This document shows positions 4,881 to 58,666 of a stretch of DNA of 64,000 nucleotides, one piece after another. Made by a program: the position numbers and the translations under genes. This DNA is from Bradyrhizobium sp. WSM1417. GTDB lineage: Bacteria; Pseudomonadota; Alphaproteobacteria; Rhizobiales; Xanthobacteraceae. Below the pieces are notes generated by a model. The model worked only from the letters and a program-made list of their open reading frames with translations. It was not told where the DNA came from and searched no databases. The stretch spans positions 5,443,831-5,507,830 of the forward strand of contig NZ_KI911783.1 of assembly GCF_000515415.1 (NCBI RefSeq). The letters run 5' to 3'. The stretch's first letter is position 1. Each line of letters starts with the position of its first letter.

Positions 4881-6731
4881 TTAACCACAAACCTCCAGCA
4901 TTGCCTTAGGCCTACCATCGCCAGAAGGCAGACTCGAGCCGCCGGGAACCAGCTTGCAGCCGGACCGCACCGGCCTGCACCCTGCTCCGTTGCAAAACAT
5001 CTGGCCGGTCGCCTGCGGCTTGGCCGGCGCGGACTCGACCTGCTTGCGCTGCTCGTCTCGCCTGTTCGAGTCATCTCTTGCAGCGACGGGCTTTTTCTCC
5101 GGAATCTTCTCGCATTCGTTGTCGTCGTTGACGCGATAGCCCGAGCGACACGCGATTTTCACGCAGGCGTCGCCGTCGGCTTTGAAGCCGCGATCGCACA
5201 CCAGAGGACAGACCCGACCCGGCTTTGCCTTGATCGCGTCCAGCGCGTCGAAGCTTGCAAGCTTGGCGTCGAACTTGGTGCCGGCGTACTTGTTGAACAA
5301 TGTCAGCGAGCGCTGCGACGATGCACTCCAGTCCCCATCGGCTGCCGCTGCGAAGCATCCTACCCGGCGCAATTCCGATTGCAGCAACTTCGCCGTCTCC
5401 TGCGCAGACATGCCGGGCTGCGATGCGGTCGGGGCGAGAGCGGCGATCTTCTGTTCGCCGTCTGCCTGCGTTTTCCTTTCCGCCGCCTGTTGGGCGGCGA
5501 GCTCGGCCGCCGCCTTGTCGGATGCAATCTTGTCGGCGAGCGCCTTTTCGGCGGAGAGCTTGTCGGCCAGCGCCTTGGCAACAGCAGCCTCGGCTTCCTT
5601 GCGCCGCTGCTCCGCAGCGGTCGCCTTCGCCTCCTCGGCCTGCTTGGCCTTCTCTGCGGCGAGTTTGGCATCCTCGGCCGCCTTGGCTGCGGCCGCCGCC
5701 TTGTCCTGCTCGGCCTTCCTGCCGCGCTCCGTAGCAAGCCGGGCCTTCTCGTCCTCGGCCTGCCGTGCCTTGTCGGCCGCAGCGGCGCGCGCTTCCTCGG
5801 CCGCAACCCTGCTTAATTGTCCGTTGGCAAGGCTGGCATAAAACCCATCGGGATATTGAGCCAGGAAAGCCGTCCAGACCTCTCGCGTACCGATCTGCAT
5901 CGCCAACTCATAGTCCCGGCGGATCGCGTCCTGCGGGTTCGGCTGCGGTCCAACCGTGACCGGCTTGGCGGGGACCAATGAGACATCGTTGCCACCCAGC
6001 GAACCGTAGACGTAAGGCTCCTGCTTGTAGCCGGTGCTCTTGAGAACGTCGTCGCGGACGAATCCGAAGGCCTTGCGCAGGTCGAGCCCCGGCGTCGGCA
6101 GCCGCTCGACCAGAGCTGCGGCAAACGGACTGTTTTTGGCGTCGCCATCCGAGGCCGTCGAGCCCGCCTTTGCGGCAAACGCGATCATGGTGTTGGGGCT
6201 CGTCGGCTCGATCTTGGCCAAACCACGCCCGACGGCGCGCGAGGCCACGGTGCGCTTCATCGTCCTGGCAAACGGATTGTCGCGGCACGCGTCCAGAATG
6301 ACCAGCCGAAGCTGTTTCGCAGACTCGACGGCAAACAGCGCACGATCAAGCGCGACCGTCTCGTCGAGCACATCGCCGTCCCTTTCGAGCGTCGCATCGA
6401 TCGGGATCAGATAGTTGTTTCCGTCCAGCTCGATACCGTGCCCGGCATAGTAGATGACAGCAACATCCGCATCGCGCGTTCGGTTGGCGAACTCGCGCAA
6501 CGACCTGCGCATCTCGGCAGCACTCACATTAAGCTTGACGTCAATGCTGTCGAAACCCGCCTTCTTGAACATGCCGCCGACCAGCGTCGCATCGTTCACG
6601 GGATTGGAGAGAAGCGGTGCGCTCTTGTAGGCCGAATTGCCAATGACCAGCGCGACGCGACGTTCGGCGTGCGCGACTCCGCCCAATCCCAGCAAAAGGA
6701 TCAGACATGTCACGAGTCTGAATGCGCCCAT
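4881..6731 (-). CDS. Secreted caspase-family (peptidase C14) protein with coiled coil
   Basis: The 616-residue protein has a signal peptide (about residues 1-22, ending GGVAHA) followed by a caspase/metacaspase p20 fold that begins RRVALVIGNSAYKSAPLLSN. The catalytic dyad is visible as His98 in VIYYAGHGIEL and Cys149 in VILDACRDNPF. Residues of about 300-430 form a long Ala/Lys/Glu-rich coiled coil. A Cys-rich C-terminal region follows, with CPLVCDRGF and CRSGYRVNDDNECEKIP resembling small EGF-like or sushi-like repeats. It is probably a periplasmic or exported cysteine peptidase or scaffold, in the expanded caspase-like family of Rhizobiales. The target is unknown. Confidence 0.85.
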   Translation of the reverse strand: MGAFRLVTCLILLLGLGGVAHAERRVALVIGNSAYKSAPLLSNPVNDATLVGGMFKKAGFDSIDVKLNVSAAEMRRSLREFANRTRDADVAVIYYAGHGIELDGNNYLIPIDATLERDGDVLDETVALDRALFAVESAKQLRLVILDACRDNPFARTMKRTVASRAVGRGLAKIEPTSPNTMIAFAAKAGSTASDGDAKNSPFAAALVERLPTPGLDLRKAFGFVRDDVLKSTGYKQEPYVYGSLGGNDVSLVPAKPVTVGPQPNPQDAIRRDYELAMQIGTREVWTAFLAQYPDGFYASLANGQLSRVAAEEARAAAADKARQAEDEKARLATERGRKAEQDKAAAAAKAAEDAKLAAEKAKQAEEAKATAAEQRRKEAEAAVAKALADKLSAEKALADKIASDKAAAELAAQQAAERKTQADGEQKIAALAPTASQPGMSAQETAKLLQSELRRVGCFAAAADGDWSASSQRSLTLFNKYAGTKFDAKLASFDALDAIKAKPGRVCPLVCDRGFKADGDACVKIACRSGYRVNDDNECEKIPEKKPVAARDDSNRRDEQRKQVESAPAKPQATGQMFCNGAGCRPVRSGCKLVPGGSSLPSGDGRPKAMLEVCG

Positions 6732-6944
6732 CGTAGCCCCGCGAAAGCACCGGGATAAAGTAGTATCCGGAACGTTCCCGAAAGCAACACAGTTCTGTGA
6801 CTTGGGTCACTCGGCGTTCGAACAAAGAGGCCGACGAGATTCGCGGTGATGCCCGCGACGCGCCCTGTGCCGCGGCCGACAACCGCCCCCATCGTGTTCC
6901 GAGAGGCTCCGAAAAAAGCCAGCGCCTCTGAGGTCGGTACCCCG

Positions 6945-10513: not shown

Positions 10514-11752
10514 CTACGCTGTGCGCAATATCGGCGCCGGCGGCTGCGACGGCCGGATCAGCGCAAACGCGATCTGAATGATGCCGCCGGCCAATCCCAG
10601 CGCCACGCCGATGCGCCAGGCCATGGTGTAGGAGCCGAGCGCGTCGTAGAGCACCCCTCCTCCGTAGGCGCCGAGGAAGCTGCCGATCTGGTGGCTCATG
10701 AAGGCGAGGCCCTGGATCATCGCCTGCCAGCGCAGGCCGAACATTTCGGCGACGGCGCCCGCGACCAGCGGGCCGACACCCATCCACAAGAAGCCCATGA
10801 TCGCCCCGAACAGCAAGGTCGAGGCAGGCGTCGCCGGCAACATGAAGTACCAGGCCAGCGCGAGTGAGCGGAAGATGTAGATTCCGCCGAGCAGCGCGAG
10901 CTTGTTCCAGCGCTGACCGGCCCAGCCGAAGAACAGCGAGCCGAGCACGTTGAAGCCGCCAATCATGCCGAGCGTCTGCGCGCTCAGCATCGGATCGAGG
11001 CCGCAGATCGCGAGATAGGACGGCAGATGCGTCGTGAGGAACACGAGCTGCATGCCGCAGACGAGATAAGCGCAGGTCATGACCACGAACGACCCGTTGC
11101 CGAACGCGGTCTTCGCCGCGATCAGGGCCGTGGCATCGACGATCTCATCACTCGCGGGCTTCGGCAGCGGGACCGCGTCGACGCGCCCGGCATACCAGGC
11201 CGCCGGGATCATCAGCACCGACATCACGACGAAGCCGGCGAGCCCGACGCGCCAGCCAAAGCCCTCGTTGAGCATCTGCCCGATCGGCGCCGACAGCAGC
11301 GCGCCGAGCGAGCCGGCACCGGAGACGATGCCGAGCACGGTCGAGCGCACCGTTGGGGGCACCGCGCGCGCCGCCACCGACATCGCGATCGCGGCCGCGG
11401 TGCAGGCGAGCGAGGTGCCGATCAGCACACCGGCGCCGATCATGATGGCGACGAGACCGTTCGCGGTTGCCATCAGCACCAGGCCCGCGATGTACATGAA
11501 CGAGCCTGCGATCATGATGGGACGGAAGCCGTAGCGCGTGGTCATCGCGCCGGCGAGCGGCTGGAGAAAGCCCCAAGCGAGGTTCTGCATGGCCAGCGCC
11601 AGCGTGAAGTCGGAGATCGACAGATGGATGTCGTGGGTCAGCGGCTGCATGAAGATGCCGAGGCTCTGCCGCAGCCCCATGCTCAGCGTCAGCATGATCG
11701 AGGCGCCGATCAGGATGGGCAATGTCGGGCGCAGGACCTGCAACAGGGGCAT
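10514..11752 (-). CDS. Major facilitator superfamily transporter
   Basis: The 412-residue, 12-helix MFS protein is probably a drug or metabolite exporter of the inner membrane. It starts MPLLQVLRPTLPILIGASIM after a good ribosome site (AAGGGAGAACAAA). Typical features are the loop WGFLQPLAGAMTTRYGFRP between helices 2 and 3 and the duplicated six-helix halves. It is transcribed divergently from a TetR-family gene with a palindrome between them, so local repression is likely. Its last 61 and 385 bases recur as fragments at 2415-2475 and 6945-7328. The substrate is unknown. Confidence 0.85.
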   Translation of the reverse strand: MPLLQVLRPTLPILIGASIMLTLSMGLRQSLGIFMQPLTHDIHLSISDFTLALAMQNLAWGFLQPLAGAMTTRYGFRPIMIAGSFMYIAGLVLMATANGLVAIMIGAGVLIGTSLACTAAAIAMSVAARAVPPTVRSTVLGIVSGAGSLGALLSAPIGQMLNEGFGWRVGLAGFVVMSVLMIPAAWYAGRVDAVPLPKPASDEIVDATALIAAKTAFGNGSFVVMTCAYLVCGMQLVFLTTHLPSYLAICGLDPMLSAQTLGMIGGFNVLGSLFFGWAGQRWNKLALLGGIYIFRSLALAWYFMLPATPASTLLFGAIMGFLWMGVGPLVAGAVAEMFGLRWQAMIQGLAFMSHQIGSFLGAYGGGVLYDALGSYTMAWRIGVALGLAGGIIQIAFALIRPSQPPAPILRTA

Positions 11753-11813
11753 TTTGTTCTCCCTTATCGGCGCGGCGCGCGCGCCGTGGTCTGCAATATC
11801 AGTTGATTTTGGT

Positions 11814-11829
11814 TACACAGACCTGTGTA
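11814..11829. promoter_or_regulatory. Probable TetR-family operator
   Basis: The perfect palindrome TACACAG-AC-CTGTGTA lies between the divergent MFS and TetR genes, about 53 bases from the TetR start and 62 from the MFS start. Size, symmetry and placement fit an autoregulatory TetR operator. Confidence 0.65.
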
Positions 11830-11881
11830 CTTAGGCTATGGTTAGCGTGCACTGTCAAGCGAACAGGACATTCACCGCCGC

Positions 11882-12490
11882 ATGGCTCCCCCGCCCGCCC
11901 CACAGACGATGAAAGAGCGGATCCTCGAGACCGCCGACAAGTTGTTCTATCTGCAGGGCATTCGCGCCATCGGTGTCGACACCATCGCGGCCGAGATCGG
12001 CATCTCCAAACGCACGCTCTACAACCACTTCCCCTCCAAGGACGCGCTGATCGCGGCCTATCTGGAGCGCCGCTTCGTGCAGCCACGCCCCTCGGACAAG
12101 CCCGCGGCCGAGCAGATCCTCGCAACATTCGATTCGCTGGAACGCCGCTTCGCCGCAAAAGATTTTCGCGGCTGTCCGTTCGTGAATGCGGTCGCCGAGC
12201 TTGGCCCGGCGGATCGCGCCGTGAAGAAGATCGCCATCGCCTTCAAGGAAAGCCGCCGCATCTGGTTTCGCGACCGCCTCAACGATCTCGGCGTTGCGAA
12301 CGCGGAAGCGCTCGCAACGCAGCTCGTGCTGCTGGTCGACGGCTCGATCGCGCAGGACCTCGTCCGCGACGATCCCGCAATGGCCCGCGCCGCGAAGGAC
12401 GCGGCGACGGTGTTACTCCGGAATGCGGGGGTGGATGTGGGAGATGAGGCTGCGGTGAAGTCAGGCAAGCGGCCGGCCCGGCATCCCTGA
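11882..12490 (+). CDS. TetR/AcrR-family transcriptional regulator
   Basis: The 202-residue protein has an N-terminal TetR DNA-binding domain (MKERILETADKLFYLQGIRA, then GVDTIAAEIGISKRTLYNHF, the helix-turn-helix) and a C-terminal ligand-binding domain containing DFRGCPFVNAVAELG. That segment is typical of the TetR_C_16/YxaF-like group. It probably represses the divergent MFS gene through the palindrome at 11814-11829 and releases it on ligand binding. The ATG at 11882 gives the standard N-terminus; no strong ribosome site precedes it. Confidence 0.85.
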   Translation: MAPPPAPQTMKERILETADKLFYLQGIRAIGVDTIAAEIGISKRTLYNHFPSKDALIAAYLERRFVQPRPSDKPAAEQILATFDSLERRFAAKDFRGCPFVNAVAELGPADRAVKKIAIAFKESRRIWFRDRLNDLGVANAEALATQLVLLVDGSIAQDLVRDDPAMARAAKDAATVLLRNAGVDVGDEAAVKSGKRPARHP

Positions 12491-52267: not shown

Positions 52268-52622
52268 GGGCGGAGTGTGGCGGACAAGTCGCTGCGCTCG
52301 CACTGACGCAGTATGAGGCGGCAGCGCCACTTCTCCAGCTCGCATGAATTACAGACATAGCTTCGCACTCTCGCGGCGCATTTCGCCCGTATCTTTGCCT
52401 GGTCACTCACCCTCTTATCCAAGAGGGCACAGGGAAGACTGCGATCATAGTCCTAAGCCGGCGGTCTCGGCCTGCTATGTGTAGCGATTGCCGTACGGGA
52501 AGTCCGTAAAGCCGCTTTGATCTATCTCAATTCTCTGACAGGAGCGGGCATCAGTTTGAGAGAGTCGCGTCCATCGCTTCGCCGCGCCGGCCGGGCGGTT
52601 GGGCGCTTCCAGGGAGCTCGAT

Positions 52623-52844
52623 ATGATCAAGTCGCTCGGAATTGCCACGTTCGCCTTCTTCTTCGCAGTATCGGCTCAGGCGATGACACCTGCCCCGATT
52701 GCACAGCCCGAAAGCCTGATTACGGAAGTCGCTGCTGCCTGCGGCGTCGGTAGGACACGTATCAACGGCGTGTGCGTCGCACGGACCACCGTCCGCCAAA
52801 CCCGTCGGGCGGTCCGCAGATGTGTGAGAGGGACAACGTGCTGA
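52623..52844 (+). CDS. Small secreted Cys-containing protein
   Basis: The 73-residue protein has a signal peptide (MIKSLGIATFAFFFAVSAQA) and the mature part AAACGVGRTRINGVCVARTT, then RRAVRRCVRGTTC. It has four cysteines and is strongly basic at the end. It matches a short exported rhizobial family recalled by its GRTRxNGVCVARTT motif. A strong ribosome site AGGGAG precedes ATG 52623. Confidence 0.75.
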   Translation: MIKSLGIATFAFFFAVSAQAMTPAPIAQPESLITEVAAACGVGRTRINGVCVARTTVRQTRRAVRRCVRGTTC

Positions 52845-53257
52845 TTGGCTGTCCTCAAGGACAATACGCAAAGTGGTGCGTCGCGATTAGAATTCTAGAG
52901 TACCGACCCCAACGGTACATCGACGCCCCCACCGGCCTCAGTCTTTCCAGACTGAGGCCGTCTTGCGCCTGAAAGGTTGGACGGACCGGTTACCTTGTGG
53001 GATTTATCGACGCGGGGAACAACTCCAACCGCAACGATGATGCCGGTACGCCAACAATCAGCCTTCGAGAGCCGGTCATCGTCAACTGACGAAGCCGACG
53101 CTGCAGGTGAATAGCGCAAACGCAAAAAGCAAATGTTTACGCAATTTACCACTCGACCATCAACGCGATGGTCTTCATTTTCTCGTCTGATAATTACCTT
53201 GCGCGCCTTGTTTGGTCGGATGCTCGGAGTGGTCCTGTCGTAGTGGAGGTGGCCGGC
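52845..53257. other. Gap before the polysaccharide operon
   Basis: No gene is supported. It contains the terminator at 52934-52964 and an AT-richer stretch after 53080 that probably holds the promoter of the operon starting at 53258. An in-frame ATG at 53168 exists but has no ribosome site. Confidence 0.45.
52934..52964 (+). terminator. Rho-independent terminator
   Basis: The stem GGCCTCAGTCT-TTCC-AGACTGAGGCC is followed by GTCTT. It isolates the secreted Cys-protein gene from the operon downstream. Confidence 0.8.
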
Positions 53258-54523
53258 ATGTCCGAAATGGTGGAAGTGCTCGCCGGAACGAGTTTATTTC
53301 TACTCGCCTTCTCGCTGCTGATATTCGACATCCCCCGCTACACCTTATCGCTGGTGTCTCTTGCTCTGTTCAGCTCGAAGCGGCGAAGCGCCAGCGGGAC
53401 GGTTTGCCAGGCGACAGTAAGCGTGATTATCCCGACATTCAACGGCGGCTCCGGGCTTGGTCCTTCGATCAGCTCGCTGCGCCGGCAAACCCTGCGACCT
53501 GTCGAAATCATCGTCGTCGACGACGGCTCCACCGACGAAACACGCGCGGTCGCGGAGCGGGCGAGAGCGCAGGGCCTGGTTGACATGGTCATCTGCCATG
53601 GGACCCGCTGCGGCCGCAGCGCTGCCATCAACGCTGCAGCACGGTTTGCCCGCGGCGCTCTGCTTTTGACCGTGGATGCCGACACTGTCTTCGAACCGAA
53701 CGCGGTTGAGCGCCTCGCTGCTGCGTTCGGCGATCCGCTCGTCGCCGGCGCAAGTTGCAGCATCGCGATCAGCAACGAGCGCGACTCGATATGGACAGGA
53801 CTTCAAAGCGTCGAATACCTGATGTCGATCACCGCGGGGCGGTCGATCCTAGACGTGGTGGATGCGATCGCGTGTCTGTCCGGCGCCTGTTCCATGTATC
53901 GCCGGGATATTTTCGCGCAGCAGGGCGGGCTCGACGTCGGCCCGGGAGAGGATATGGAGTACACCTTGCGGCTTCGCAGGCTCGGCTATGTCATTCACTT
54001 CGTGTCCGATGCCTGGGCGGAAACAGCCGCCCCCGCAAGTGGCATAAGTCTGTTGCGCCAGCGTGCGCGCTGGGATCGCGATGCTCTGCGCATCCGCTTC
54101 ATGATGTATGGCGAGCTGAGTTTTCGCCACCCGCTAGAGCGTTTACCGGACACAATCCAACGGCTGGACTTCATCGTCTTCGATCTCGTTCCGACGCTCA
54201 GCCTGCCATTCTACTTGGCCTACATTGTGCTGTTGTTCGGCTCGGATGCCGTGTTGTTTCTTTCGGCGATATACGTGCTGCTGCTCTGGATCTCGGTCTT
54301 CAATATGGCACTTGTGTTCGCCCTATTCCATCGATCCGTCGGAACGTTTGGCTGGAAGATGGCTCTGATCTTTCCCTTTTACCAGGGTGTCTATCTCAAG
54401 TGCGCCCGGTTCTTTTCCTACTCTTCGGAAATCATCTTTGCCTCGTCGCGGAACGATGATTTCGTGCCGCCGCGCGTTCGCCGTGCACTATTCGGCGATC
54501 GGACGAAGGAAGTGGCCAAATGA
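53258..54523 (+). CDS. Processive family-2 glycosyltransferase, polysaccharide synthase
   Basis: The 421-residue membrane protein has one N-terminal helix (GTSLFLLAFSLLIFDI), then a GT-A catalytic domain: VSVIIPTFNGGSGLG, VEIIVVDDGSTDETR (D), LLLTVDADTVFEP (DxD), GLDVGPGEDMEYTLRLRR (catalytic ED) and SLLRQRARWDRDALR (QxxRW, the processive mark). About three or four C-terminal helices form the channel. This is the BcsA/Alg8/NodC/HasA class, and no PilZ domain is present. ATG 53258 is set by GGAGGT 7 bases upstream. It overlaps the next gene by ATGA. The product polymer is unknown. Confidence 0.9.
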   Translation: MSEMVEVLAGTSLFLLAFSLLIFDIPRYTLSLVSLALFSSKRRSASGTVCQATVSVIIPTFNGGSGLGPSISSLRRQTLRPVEIIVVDDGSTDETRAVAERARAQGLVDMVICHGTRCGRSAAINAAARFARGALLLTVDADTVFEPNAVERLAAAFGDPLVAGASCSIAISNERDSIWTGLQSVEYLMSITAGRSILDVVDAIACLSGACSMYRRDIFAQQGGLDVGPGEDMEYTLRLRRLGYVIHFVSDAWAETAAPASGISLLRQRARWDRDALRIRFMMYGELSFRHPLERLPDTIQRLDFIVFDLVPTLSLPFYLAYIVLLFGSDAVLFLSAIYVLLLWISVFNMALVFALFHRSVGTFGWKMALIFPFYQGVYLKCARFFSYSSEIIFASSRNDDFVPPRVRRALFGDRTKEVAK

Positions 54524-55572
54524 CCATCACCCTAACACGGCTCGATCCCCATATCCCCGACCCCATCGAGAGCCGTCGGCGCGCGGCCGGACGGGCTGTC
54601 CGCGCCGCCTACGCGACAATCGTATTTGGCATACTCGCATTCTTTGTAGTCTATTTCGGCAGGCCACTCCTCTATCTCGGCGGCCCCGGTAGCGTGTCCT
54701 CGCCGAGATATTTGGTTTCACTGCCTTACATCGTGCAGATTAATAGCATCAGCGTGCTGAGAGGTGCATCGGTCAGGGCCGGCGAAGAAATCGGAAGGGT
54801 TCGGTCTCCGCAGCACGATGAAATCGTCGCTACCTATATGCGCTCACTTGCGGACATTGCCGGCCGCAGGGCGGAATTGCGTGTCAAGGCCCGGGTTGCG
54901 CGCGAATCGCTCGACGCGGCGCGTTCTCATCTGCGGCTTGCTGAGGAAGCTGTCGAGCTTATCGCAACCTCATCGGCTGCGAGCCTGAATTACCGCATAG
55001 ACATGTCCCGGGAGCGCGCCCTGGCGAACAAAGCCGTGGTCTCGCAGGAGGCGGAATCCGCCGAAGCCACCACTCAACTGGCTGCTCTCGACGAATTCAG
55101 CCGGCAACTCGGTGACCGCCTCGAAAAGGTTGAAAGCAGCTTTGCCGGCGGGAGAGTCTTTGCGCCCATAGCTGGCATCGTCGCGAACAATCCTGCGCGT
55201 GCCGGCCAATCGCTGGTGGCGGGCACCCCGATTGCAGAAATTCTCGACCCCACGGATGTCTTCGTCGACTGGTACGTTCCTAACGAACGCCTGTCCGATC
55301 CAAAAGTCGGCAACGAAGTGTTTGTCCTGTTCGGCAACCGGCGAATTCTGGGCGAGATCATTGAAATCCTGCCGGTGTCAGATGTGTACCCGGGACCGGG
55401 CTCGTCAGTGGCGCGCGAGCGTACCGCGTCGCAAATCGCGCGAATTAGGTTCAGCCCAGGCGCGCATCTCCCGGCGCTGAACTCGGCCGTCGACGTCCAC
55501 ATGCACTATACGCAACTCAGCGCGCGGATCGCTTCCGTGCTGGTGGGAATATTCGGGCTCGACGAGCTGTGA
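54520..55572 (+). CDS. HlyD/Alg44-like periplasmic adaptor
   Basis: The 350-residue protein has an N-terminal helix (AAYATIVFGILAFFVVYFGR), a biotinyl-lipoyl-like half (INSISVLRGASVRAGEEIGR), and an alpha-helical hairpin of about 100 residues. It closes with the return half GRVFAPIAGIVANNPARAGQ and a beta-barrel (VFVDWYVPNERLSDPKVGNE). Membrane-fusion proteins of this kind, such as Alg44 and BgsB, partner with synthase glycosyltransferases to carry the polymer through the periplasm. No PilZ domain is seen. Translation is coupled to the synthase gene. Confidence 0.88.
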   Translation: MTITLTRLDPHIPDPIESRRRAAGRAVRAAYATIVFGILAFFVVYFGRPLLYLGGPGSVSSPRYLVSLPYIVQINSISVLRGASVRAGEEIGRVRSPQHDEIVATYMRSLADIAGRRAELRVKARVARESLDAARSHLRLAEEAVELIATSSAASLNYRIDMSRERALANKAVVSQEAESAEATTQLAALDEFSRQLGDRLEKVESSFAGGRVFAPIAGIVANNPARAGQSLVAGTPIAEILDPTDVFVDWYVPNERLSDPKVGNEVFVLFGNRRILGEIIEILPVSDVYPGPGSSVARERTASQIARIRFSPGAHLPALNSAVDVHMHYTQLSARIASVLVGIFGLDEL

Positions 55573-55590
55573 GAGGGAGCGGGGTGCAGC

Positions 55591-55857
55591 ATGCAGATCG
55601 AAGGGACTCAAACGAATTGCCCGGCTTGCGGCTCATCCGCTCTGATCTCGTTTCCGGTATTCCACCACATGATCTGCGCCTATGTTGGTCCGGAGTATGA
55701 CTTCGCACCAAGCATCGCGGGATATACGTGCCCGAAATGCTGCCGCGAGATTGTGTCGGCTGACCCAGCTTGCGAGATCGTGGGCACTAGCGCGCGGTGC
55801 ACAAGGTGTTGGGTTGAGATGGTGGTGTCCCCAGCGTGTGCTCCGGCTGGTTTGTAA
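55591..55857 (+). CDS. Small zinc-ribbon protein, TackOD1-like
   Basis: The 88-residue soluble protein has CPACGS at 10-15, then FHHMICAYVGPEYDF, YTCPKCCREIVS and ARCTRCWVEM. Three CxxC knuckles plus the H/C pair give two zinc sites. The order Cxx C..HxxxCxYxGPExxF..Y.CPKC..CxxC resembles the TackOD1 output domain as I recall it. It begins 18 bases after the adaptor stop behind GAGAGGGAG, so it is the third gene of the operon and possibly its regulator or assembly factor. The role is unproven. Confidence 0.65.
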   Translation: MQIEGTQTNCPACGSSALISFPVFHHMICAYVGPEYDFAPSIAGYTCPKCCREIVSADPACEIVGTSARCTRCWVEMVVSPACAPAGL

Positions 55858-56167
55858 GGATTAGCGGCGATCTCGGCTTGTCCGTCCCCAGACGCAAAGT
55901 TGGACGTACGGTTGCCGCGTCCACCGCAAGCCCGGCCCGCGAACGTGACGACCACAAGATCGCCCCTCAAGGATGAGCCGGGATGGACGACACATCCGCC
56001 AACGGAACTTCGGTAAAGAGGAATATATCTGCGCGAGCGGATTGACGGGGGCGACACAGGCGCGGTCGCGTAGCGCGGATGGAGCGCGGCGCAATCCGGG
56101 AAGGTGCCAGACGCAGCGCGAGCGGCCCCGGATTGCTCTGCGCTCCATCCGGGTGACGGGCCATCTG
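55858..56167. other. Gap holding a family-3 repeat
   Basis: No gene is supported. The 3' part is the repeat at 56071-56156; the 5' part (55858-56070) shows nothing clear, including no T-tract terminator for the operon. Confidence 0.4.
56071..56156. repeat. Intergenic palindromic repeat, family 3, copy a
   Basis: The arms TAGCGCGGATGGAGCGCGGC and CTCTGCGCTCCATCCGGGTGA are imperfectly complementary. The same family occurs at 58566-58650. It lies just past the stop of the TolA-like gene. Confidence 0.72.
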
Positions 56168-58498: not shown

Positions 58499-58565
58499 GC
58501 TCATTCCCCCAAGCAAGGCGATGATGCGGCAGGCCGCTTAAGTTCGGATTAAAGATGATGGCCAG

Positions 58566-58650
58566 TAGCCCGGATGGAGCGCAGCGCAACCCGGGGCGTC
58601 TCTGGAGCCGACGCATCCGCCCCGGATTACGCTGCGCTCCATCCAGGCTA
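58566..58650. repeat. Intergenic palindromic repeat, family 3, copy b
   Basis: The arms TAGCCCGGATGGAGCGCAGC and GCTGCGCTCCATCCAGGCTA are near-perfect over 20 bases, with CCCGGGG and CCCCGG further in. It lies between the XRE gene and the mgtE stop. Confidence 0.8.
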
Positions 58651-58666
58651 CGGATTTCAACAGCTC

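Follow-up and report, generated by a model that had tools for sequence, protein, structure and literature searches.

What does a zinc-ribbon protein of 88 amino acids do as the third gene of an operon whose first two genes encode a glycosyltransferase and its membrane partner? The question is raised by a locus in the 8.05-Mb, single-contig genome of Bradyrhizobium sp. WSM1417, which was analysed within a stretch of 64 kb (the window; all coordinates are positions in it) and in which a family 2 glycosyltransferase (GT2) synthase, a HlyD adaptor and the ribbon protein are encoded, all on the plus strand, as one operon. The reading preferred here, to which a rough probability of 0.6 was assigned, is that the operon is a minimal, horizontally moved unit for the synthesis of a poly- or oligosaccharide, in which the ribbon protein is the output core of a TackOD1 regulator and acts on the synthase. 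The features concerned are as follows.

53258-54523, plus strand: GT2 membrane synthase of the QxxRW type, 421 amino acids (PF00535, 1.4e-30; PF13641, 6.5e-25; motifs; start placed by homologues and GGAGG)
54520-55572, plus strand: HlyD/membrane-fusion adaptor, 350 amino acids (Pfam HlyD_3, 5.5e-12; HlyD_D23, 6e-10; hydropathy)
55591-55857, plus strand: zinc-ribbon protein, 88 amino acids, assigned as a TackOD1 core (PF18551, 8.2e-8; profile-profile comparison; AlphaFold)
55618-55629, plus strand: CxxC knuckle (C10, C13), invariant in 15 aligned sequences
55663-55677, plus strand: HHxxC knuckle (H25, H26, C29), invariant in the same 15
55729-55740, plus strand: CPKC knuckle (C47, C50), invariant in the same 15
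55798-55809, plus strand: CxxC knuckle (C70, C73), invariant in the same 15

TackOD1 was named in 2018 as an output domain of archaeal response regulators with a function termed "obscure" (Galperin et al., PMC5847659), and the accessible part of that paper describes a domain of about 200 amino acids with five CxxC motifs and one HxxC motif, which also occurs in thaumarchaeal type IV pilus loci. The preliminary description of the window had called the ribbon protein TackOD1-like, and this was borne out by a Pfam search with PF18551 (32.5 bits against a cut-off of 32; 34.1 bits in the genome scan), while homologues from Microvirga and Phyllobacterium scored 53.9 and 66.0 bits. When profiles were compared, the ribbon matched the long TackOD1 proteins of bacteria with a probability of 98.5% (E 3e-15) over residues 6-80. 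The ribbon spans only positions 89-154 of the 188 in the TackOD1 profile, keeps three of the five CxxC motifs together with HxxC, and falls short of the full domain of about 200 residues; judged by its sequence, it is a partial, core-only TackOD1. Its knuckles align with knuckles two to five of the long proteins and include no counterpart of the first or the last, and two complete zinc sites are predicted. Also invariant across the 15 ribbons (the window's own included) were AYxGPxxDF, R52, E62 and G65. The AlphaFold model was confident (predicted local distance difference test, pLDDT, 87; predicted TM-score, pTM, 0.72), with no close likeness among solved structures, and the closest named match of the protein was from a Bradyrhizobium (98%).

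The genes and their spacing were as first described, with the synthase and adaptor reading frames overlapping by ATGA at 54520-54523 and a gap of 18 nucleotides between the adaptor and ribbon open reading frames (ORFs). The synthase start was placed at 53258 and not at 53168, because in five relatives (L021-L024, L035) the protein starts at what is residue 31 of the longer ORF, and because a GGAGG sequence (53245-53249) lies 8 nucleotides 5' of the ATG at 53258. The catalytic motifs of the synthase are intact (DDGS 88, DADT 140, GPGED 228, QRARW 268), its hydrophobic segments form one N-terminal and one C-terminal group, and with D, DxD, ED, QxxRW and membrane segments it has the features of a processive-type GT2; at 421 amino acids it has no C-terminal extension. 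The adaptor is of the ordinary HlyD type, with a single, N-terminal hydrophobic segment (25-54) and with both HlyD_3 and HlyD_D23 above the Pfam cut-off, as befits a periplasmic or inner-membrane partner. The absence of PilZ, as first described, was upheld: neither PilZ nor GGDEF was among the Pfam matches of the three proteins at E<=1, a range in which the HMMER filters discard most matches above 0.1.

Among NCBIfam profiles the top match of the synthase was NodC (TIGR04242; 95.8 bits), and identity with this chitooligosaccharide synthase was rejected at a score so far under the cut-off of 550. The same match bears on the proposal that the product is a short, NodC-like oligosaccharide signal and not an exported polymer, for which it also speaks that two carriers come from legumes according to the source given in their records (Sinorhizobium medicae from Medicago, Microvirga VF16 from Vachellia). 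With the score so low, an HlyD adaptor present and long-form relatives from marine sources (Roseibium, Palleronia), this proposal appears very improbable.

Homologues of the ribbon were found beside GT2 and HlyD genes in other genomes, and the neighbourhood survey gave the same order of GT, HlyD and ribbon at 18 loci from several genera of the Hyphomicrobiales, including a Sinorhizobium medicae plasmid, another genus of the same family (L025) and a further Hyphomicrobiales family (L136). The ribbon was present in 10 of 146 genomes of the genus Bradyrhizobium (counting the window's own, and one partial), and a profile of the short form matched in 30 of 347 genomes of the order; flanking genes were common only inside groups of related strains. 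That the ribbon adjoins and follows GT and HlyD at all 18 loci, and has no input domain left, would suit a factor that constitutively assembles or stabilises the complex of synthase and adaptor and takes no part in regulation. The same core is, at the same time, part of receiver or GGDEF-fold proteins in relatives (see below), which argues for a regulatory history, and this alternative is thought unlikely.

The ratio of nonsynonymous to synonymous substitution rates (dN/dS) for the ribbon was 0.18-0.35 in seven of nine pairs, the other two being saturated, and that for GT and HlyD was 0.08-0.19 over all nine, so that by these sequence comparisons the ribbon is under purifying selection, weaker than that on its neighbours. 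The higher ratio of the ribbon and a few decayed cassettes are what would be expected if it were a decaying remnant without function; given the range of dN/dS, the invariant ligands and the retention of the ribbon with its synthases across several genera, this was accorded hardly any credence. In a maximum-likelihood tree of the GT, 17 short-form synthases among 59 rows lay on one side of a branch with support of 100/100, and this branch adjoins GTs accompanied by full-length TackOD1, the tree being rooted at its midpoint only. The simplest history consistent with these sequences would be a single reduction together with movement of the core to the 3' end. The Hyphomicrobiales locus L140 carries a second TackOD1 gene (11069-12412), with no receiver domain, downstream of its HlyD gene, and is a possible step toward the 3' short form.

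Full-length TackOD1 proteins keep the same company. A scan with the Pfam TackOD1 profile (E<=0.001) found matches in 5 of 198 genomes of the family, 13 of 337 of the class and 13 of 349 of the phylum, of which those in 4, 7 and 11 genomes, respectively, were above the Pfam cut-off. A GT2 gene of the same family as that of the window lay on the same strand within 2.5 kb of the long TackOD1 gene at 44 of 50 loci (42 of 48 when two loci found through the GT are set aside), and TackOD1 was upstream of the GT in 43 of those 44. Of the 50, 40 had a detected HlyD-type gene nearby, as had 39 of the 44 linked to a GT; further HlyD genes may be missed because the profile was made from alphaproteobacterial cassettes. 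The six loci outside the 44 are L063 (GT on the opposite strand), L064, L065, L147 (a GT of the family lies elsewhere in its genome, L187), L160 (a 3-kb contig) and L164. In the reverse direction, a GT of this family was found at E<=1e-70 in 24 of 249 genomes of the order, and TackOD1 or the ribbon lay within 1.5 kb at 23 of 26 GT places (one split gene counted twice), a test which is not independent because the loci behind the GT profile were themselves linked to TackOD1 and lay partly in the same genomes. At the three remaining places TackOD1 lay further along the contig (L162) or elsewhere in the genome, or the GT was the weakest match (L196).

The trio was also found on named plasmids of alpha- and gammaproteobacteria (Phyllobacterium, Methylocystis, Plesiomonas, Rhodobacteraceae, Roseibium), where it is annotated as a hypothetical protein, diguanylate cyclase or response regulator, then a glycosyltransferase, then HlyD or a hypothetical protein. 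Seventeen plasmid records matched, and in six of eight examined in addition to a first two a GT2 gene adjoins TackOD1, the other two of the eight being from the archaeon Haladaptatus. In Methylocystis the HlyD-like gene is followed, two genes on, by one of the TolC family; galE lies beside one plasmid locus and a gene for undecaprenyl-phosphate glucose phosphotransferase beside another, a hint at hexose polymers, though these neighbours differ between loci. A compact locus on a Roseibium plasmid (L169) encodes a CHASE protein, a receiver-TackOD1 protein, GT2, a HlyD-like protein, two Hpt proteins and a diguanylate cyclase, and would be a good model for testing inputs. The proposal of the preliminary description that control or assembly may run through the ribbon is thus backed by a strong genomic association, which suggests that the job of TackOD1 in bacteria is to control such synthases.

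The domain counts cover the 50 long proteins together with eight encoded on plasmids, 58 in all. With a profile made from five receiver domains that Pfam had confirmed, a receiver was called in 24 of them, leaving 34 without. The GGDEF motif was found in none of the 58 (simple pattern, last 200 residues). The RxxD motif stood at the I-site position in 26 (22 of the 34 receiver-less and 4 of the 24 receiver-bearing proteins), counts that are approximate because fragments are included among the 58 and because this region aligns loosely, worst in the receiver-bearing group. The receiver-less protein of L062 was modelled with a pLDDT of 83.6 and a pTM of 0.58, and its C-terminal third has a predicted GGDEF fold (Foldseek 1.1e-7 to SiaD); similarly, a profile of 16 receiver-less long proteins matched solved GGDEF domains at 9.6e-15. 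Among 11 long proteins scanned with Pfam, Response_reg was above the cut-off in five, and a match of L066 to PelD_GGDEF was weak (18.2 bits, cut-off 27). From its sequence the ribbon appears to be a core left over from a larger TackOD1 regulator, which in other proteobacteria is fused to a GGDEF fold or a receiver, a relationship overlooked in the preliminary description; and the two kinds of fusion suggest that cyclic di-GMP (c-di-GMP) and phosphorylation may be alternative inputs, with TackOD1 as the constant part.

The knuckles themselves could be read otherwise, the ribbon being a sensor of zinc level or redox state that switches the synthase, a new input acquired once the earlier ones had gone. 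None of the eight presumed zinc-ligand positions varies among the 15 sequences, and other residues are likewise invariant. The full-length proteins, some of them with other inputs, have the same knuckles, so that these are more simply taken as structural, and a sensory role seems distinctly unlikely.

That the unit moved as a block is indicated by the absence of the cassette at this site in relatives, a block shared with B. canariense in another context, and low G+C content overall (GC) and at third codon positions (GC3). No match to the cassette was found at the window's own site in seven of seven relatives inspected (L098-L104), out of 12 that have the flanking gene; about 240 nucleotides separate the flanks in L098 and L099, and other relatives carry other DNA there. 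One of the seven (G007) has a short-form cassette elsewhere in its genome. By blastn the block ends at 52440 and at 55867/55873 in L017/L019, its middle being absent in L019. The operon, which had been described as AT-richer than its surroundings, has a GC of 0.600 against a window mean of 0.641 (standard deviation 0.020), a comparison made within the window only, and 13 of 307 stretches of 2.6 kb were equal or lower; GC3 was 0.72, 0.68 and 0.65 for synthase, adaptor and ribbon, against 0.91 for a nearby DUF599 gene. The operon, to judge from these sequence data, is laterally transferred as one block, in agreement with the acquisition first proposed. The block and a further ORF within it are listed here.

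52440-55870, no strand: transferred block of about 3.4 kb (blastn; common to B. canariense in another context)
52599-52844, plus strand: small ORF in the same block as the operon, of secreted type by eye (homologues in L016, L017/L030, L019 and L029 among the loci compared)

Pfam gave no match for 52623-52841, and the small ORF is probably outside the synthase system. A terminator and a repeat had been thought to bound the segment; the repeat (56069-56158) was confirmed, with another copy at 58565-58651, but terminators were no more frequent than chance would give (3, against 3.6 expected from shuffled sequence). The two copies are dispersed inverted repeats of about 85-90 bases, resembling repetitive extragenic palindromic elements, and flank genes to the right of the cassette. 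Separately, the window is equally AT-rich at about 6.2-10.6 kb (GC about 0.59-0.60 over stretches of 2.6 kb), in a segment that may also have been acquired.

A number of results weigh against a TackOD1 core acting on the synthase, or against parts of that proposal. The Pfam pass of the ribbon is marginal and its Mesorhizobium homologue (L031) is under the cut-off at 29.7 bits; the ribbon also evolves faster than GT and HlyD. Two short-form copies beyond the 18 are decayed, L019 being without HlyD and some of the GT, and L081, on a Microvirga sp. VF16 plasmid (pMVF16-5), retaining adaptor pieces and the ribbon, with no synthase found; in L016, one of the 18, the GT reads in two frames. Next to the operon no outer-membrane channel was recognised among neighbours scanned in part. 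With respect to the association, no TackOD1 was found near the GT of L196 within the sequence piece examined, and two proteins with TackOD1-like knuckles on archaeal Haladaptatus plasmids (5851-6852 in both L165 and L166) had no GT nearby. With respect to the inputs, RxxD is absent in 12 of the 34 receiver-less and 20 of the 24 receiver-bearing proteins, and Pfam GGDEF was above its cut-off in only two of the 11 scanned (L066, L070), below it in L026 and L027 and unlisted in seven, including all five receiver-bearing ones, so that a c-di-GMP input is not general.

Under the preferred reading, the GT2 would polymerise a nucleotide sugar at the inner membrane and hand the chain outward, and the HlyD adaptor would convey it across the periplasm. 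The ribbon, as the surviving core of a TackOD1 regulator, would be a cytoplasmic subunit held together by zinc that binds the synthase and sets its state. In relatives, TackOD1 may place synthases of this kind under c-di-GMP, by way of a dead GGDEF domain that in some of them has an I-site, or under a phosphorelay, by way of a receiver. Since the window form has the output part only and lacks such input domains, its synthase may be permanently licensed by the ribbon, controlled in trans, or controlled by transcription. It is about an even chance, in our estimate, that TackOD1 is more generally a synthase-coupling module, a zinc-knuckle output domain which holds a GT2 synthase while inputs are exchanged or lost; this would be an undescribed class of machine, of which the window has the smallest form. 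The adjacency to GT2 at 44 of 50 loci in the proteobacteria sampled gives TackOD1 a role open to testing, and places one more candidate class of regulated polysaccharide synthases alongside those of cellulose, alginate, Pel and poly-N-acetylglucosamine (PNAG). As the short form confines the output part to 88 residues, tests of binding and activation should be simple, and the receiver-bearing, GGDEF-fold and input-free versions amount to a natural experiment on the evolution of synthase control.

For comparison with the BgsB-BgsA system, an unannotated pair on pSymB was used, which we take to be BgsB-BgsA from its position. Its GT has 669 amino acids against 421 here, with 22.8% identity over 346 columns, and HlyD comes first there. 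A BgsA-type synthase with a c-di-GMP-binding C-terminal domain was rejected for the window on the basis of this difference in length from the presumed BgsA. As described in the accessible parts of PMC9495663 and PMC5567048, BgsB-BgsA, which makes a mixed-linkage beta-glucan in Sinorhizobium and Rhizobium, is likewise a pair of a HlyD-like and a GT2-type protein in Hyphomicrobiales with no predicted PilZ, and differs in that c-di-GMP activates BgsA at its C-terminus.

In the literature searched, which leaves most subscription papers outside, TackOD1 or PF18551 was named in PMC5847659 only, "Thaumarchaeal output domain" did not occur, and no paper describing the arrangement reported here was found; an operon survey (PMC7112194) has no HlyD or zinc in the accessible part of its main text. 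The archaeal TackOD1 of PMC5847659 has the same CxxC/HxxC zinc knuckles, and the receiver-TackOD1 architecture listed there for archaea recurs in the bacterial relatives, next to a synthase of the kind seen in the window, whereas the accessible part of that paper mentions "some bacteria" without a link to a synthase.

PelD and BcsE are c-di-GMP receptors with degenerate GGDEF domains that act on polysaccharide synthases (PMC8461298, accessible part), and part of the long relatives may resemble them in a GGDEF fold without the catalytic motif, a putative RxxD I-site and the synthase control proposed. PelD differs in having GAF and membrane parts where the long relatives have the zinc-knuckle TackOD1, and the Pel synthase is PelF (GT4), whereas the long relatives pair with GT2 and HlyD; in the short form of the window the PelD-like GGDEF part is wholly absent.

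In Alg8-Alg44, BcsA-BcsB and PgaC-PgaD a GT2 synthase of the QxxRW type is joined to an inner-membrane or periplasmic partner. The operon of the window shares this plan, which is covered in part by the accessible text of PMC8461298. It differs in that no PilZ was found and no PgaD-like partner was seen in it, and in that the place of the third gene is taken by what appears to be a TackOD1 core.

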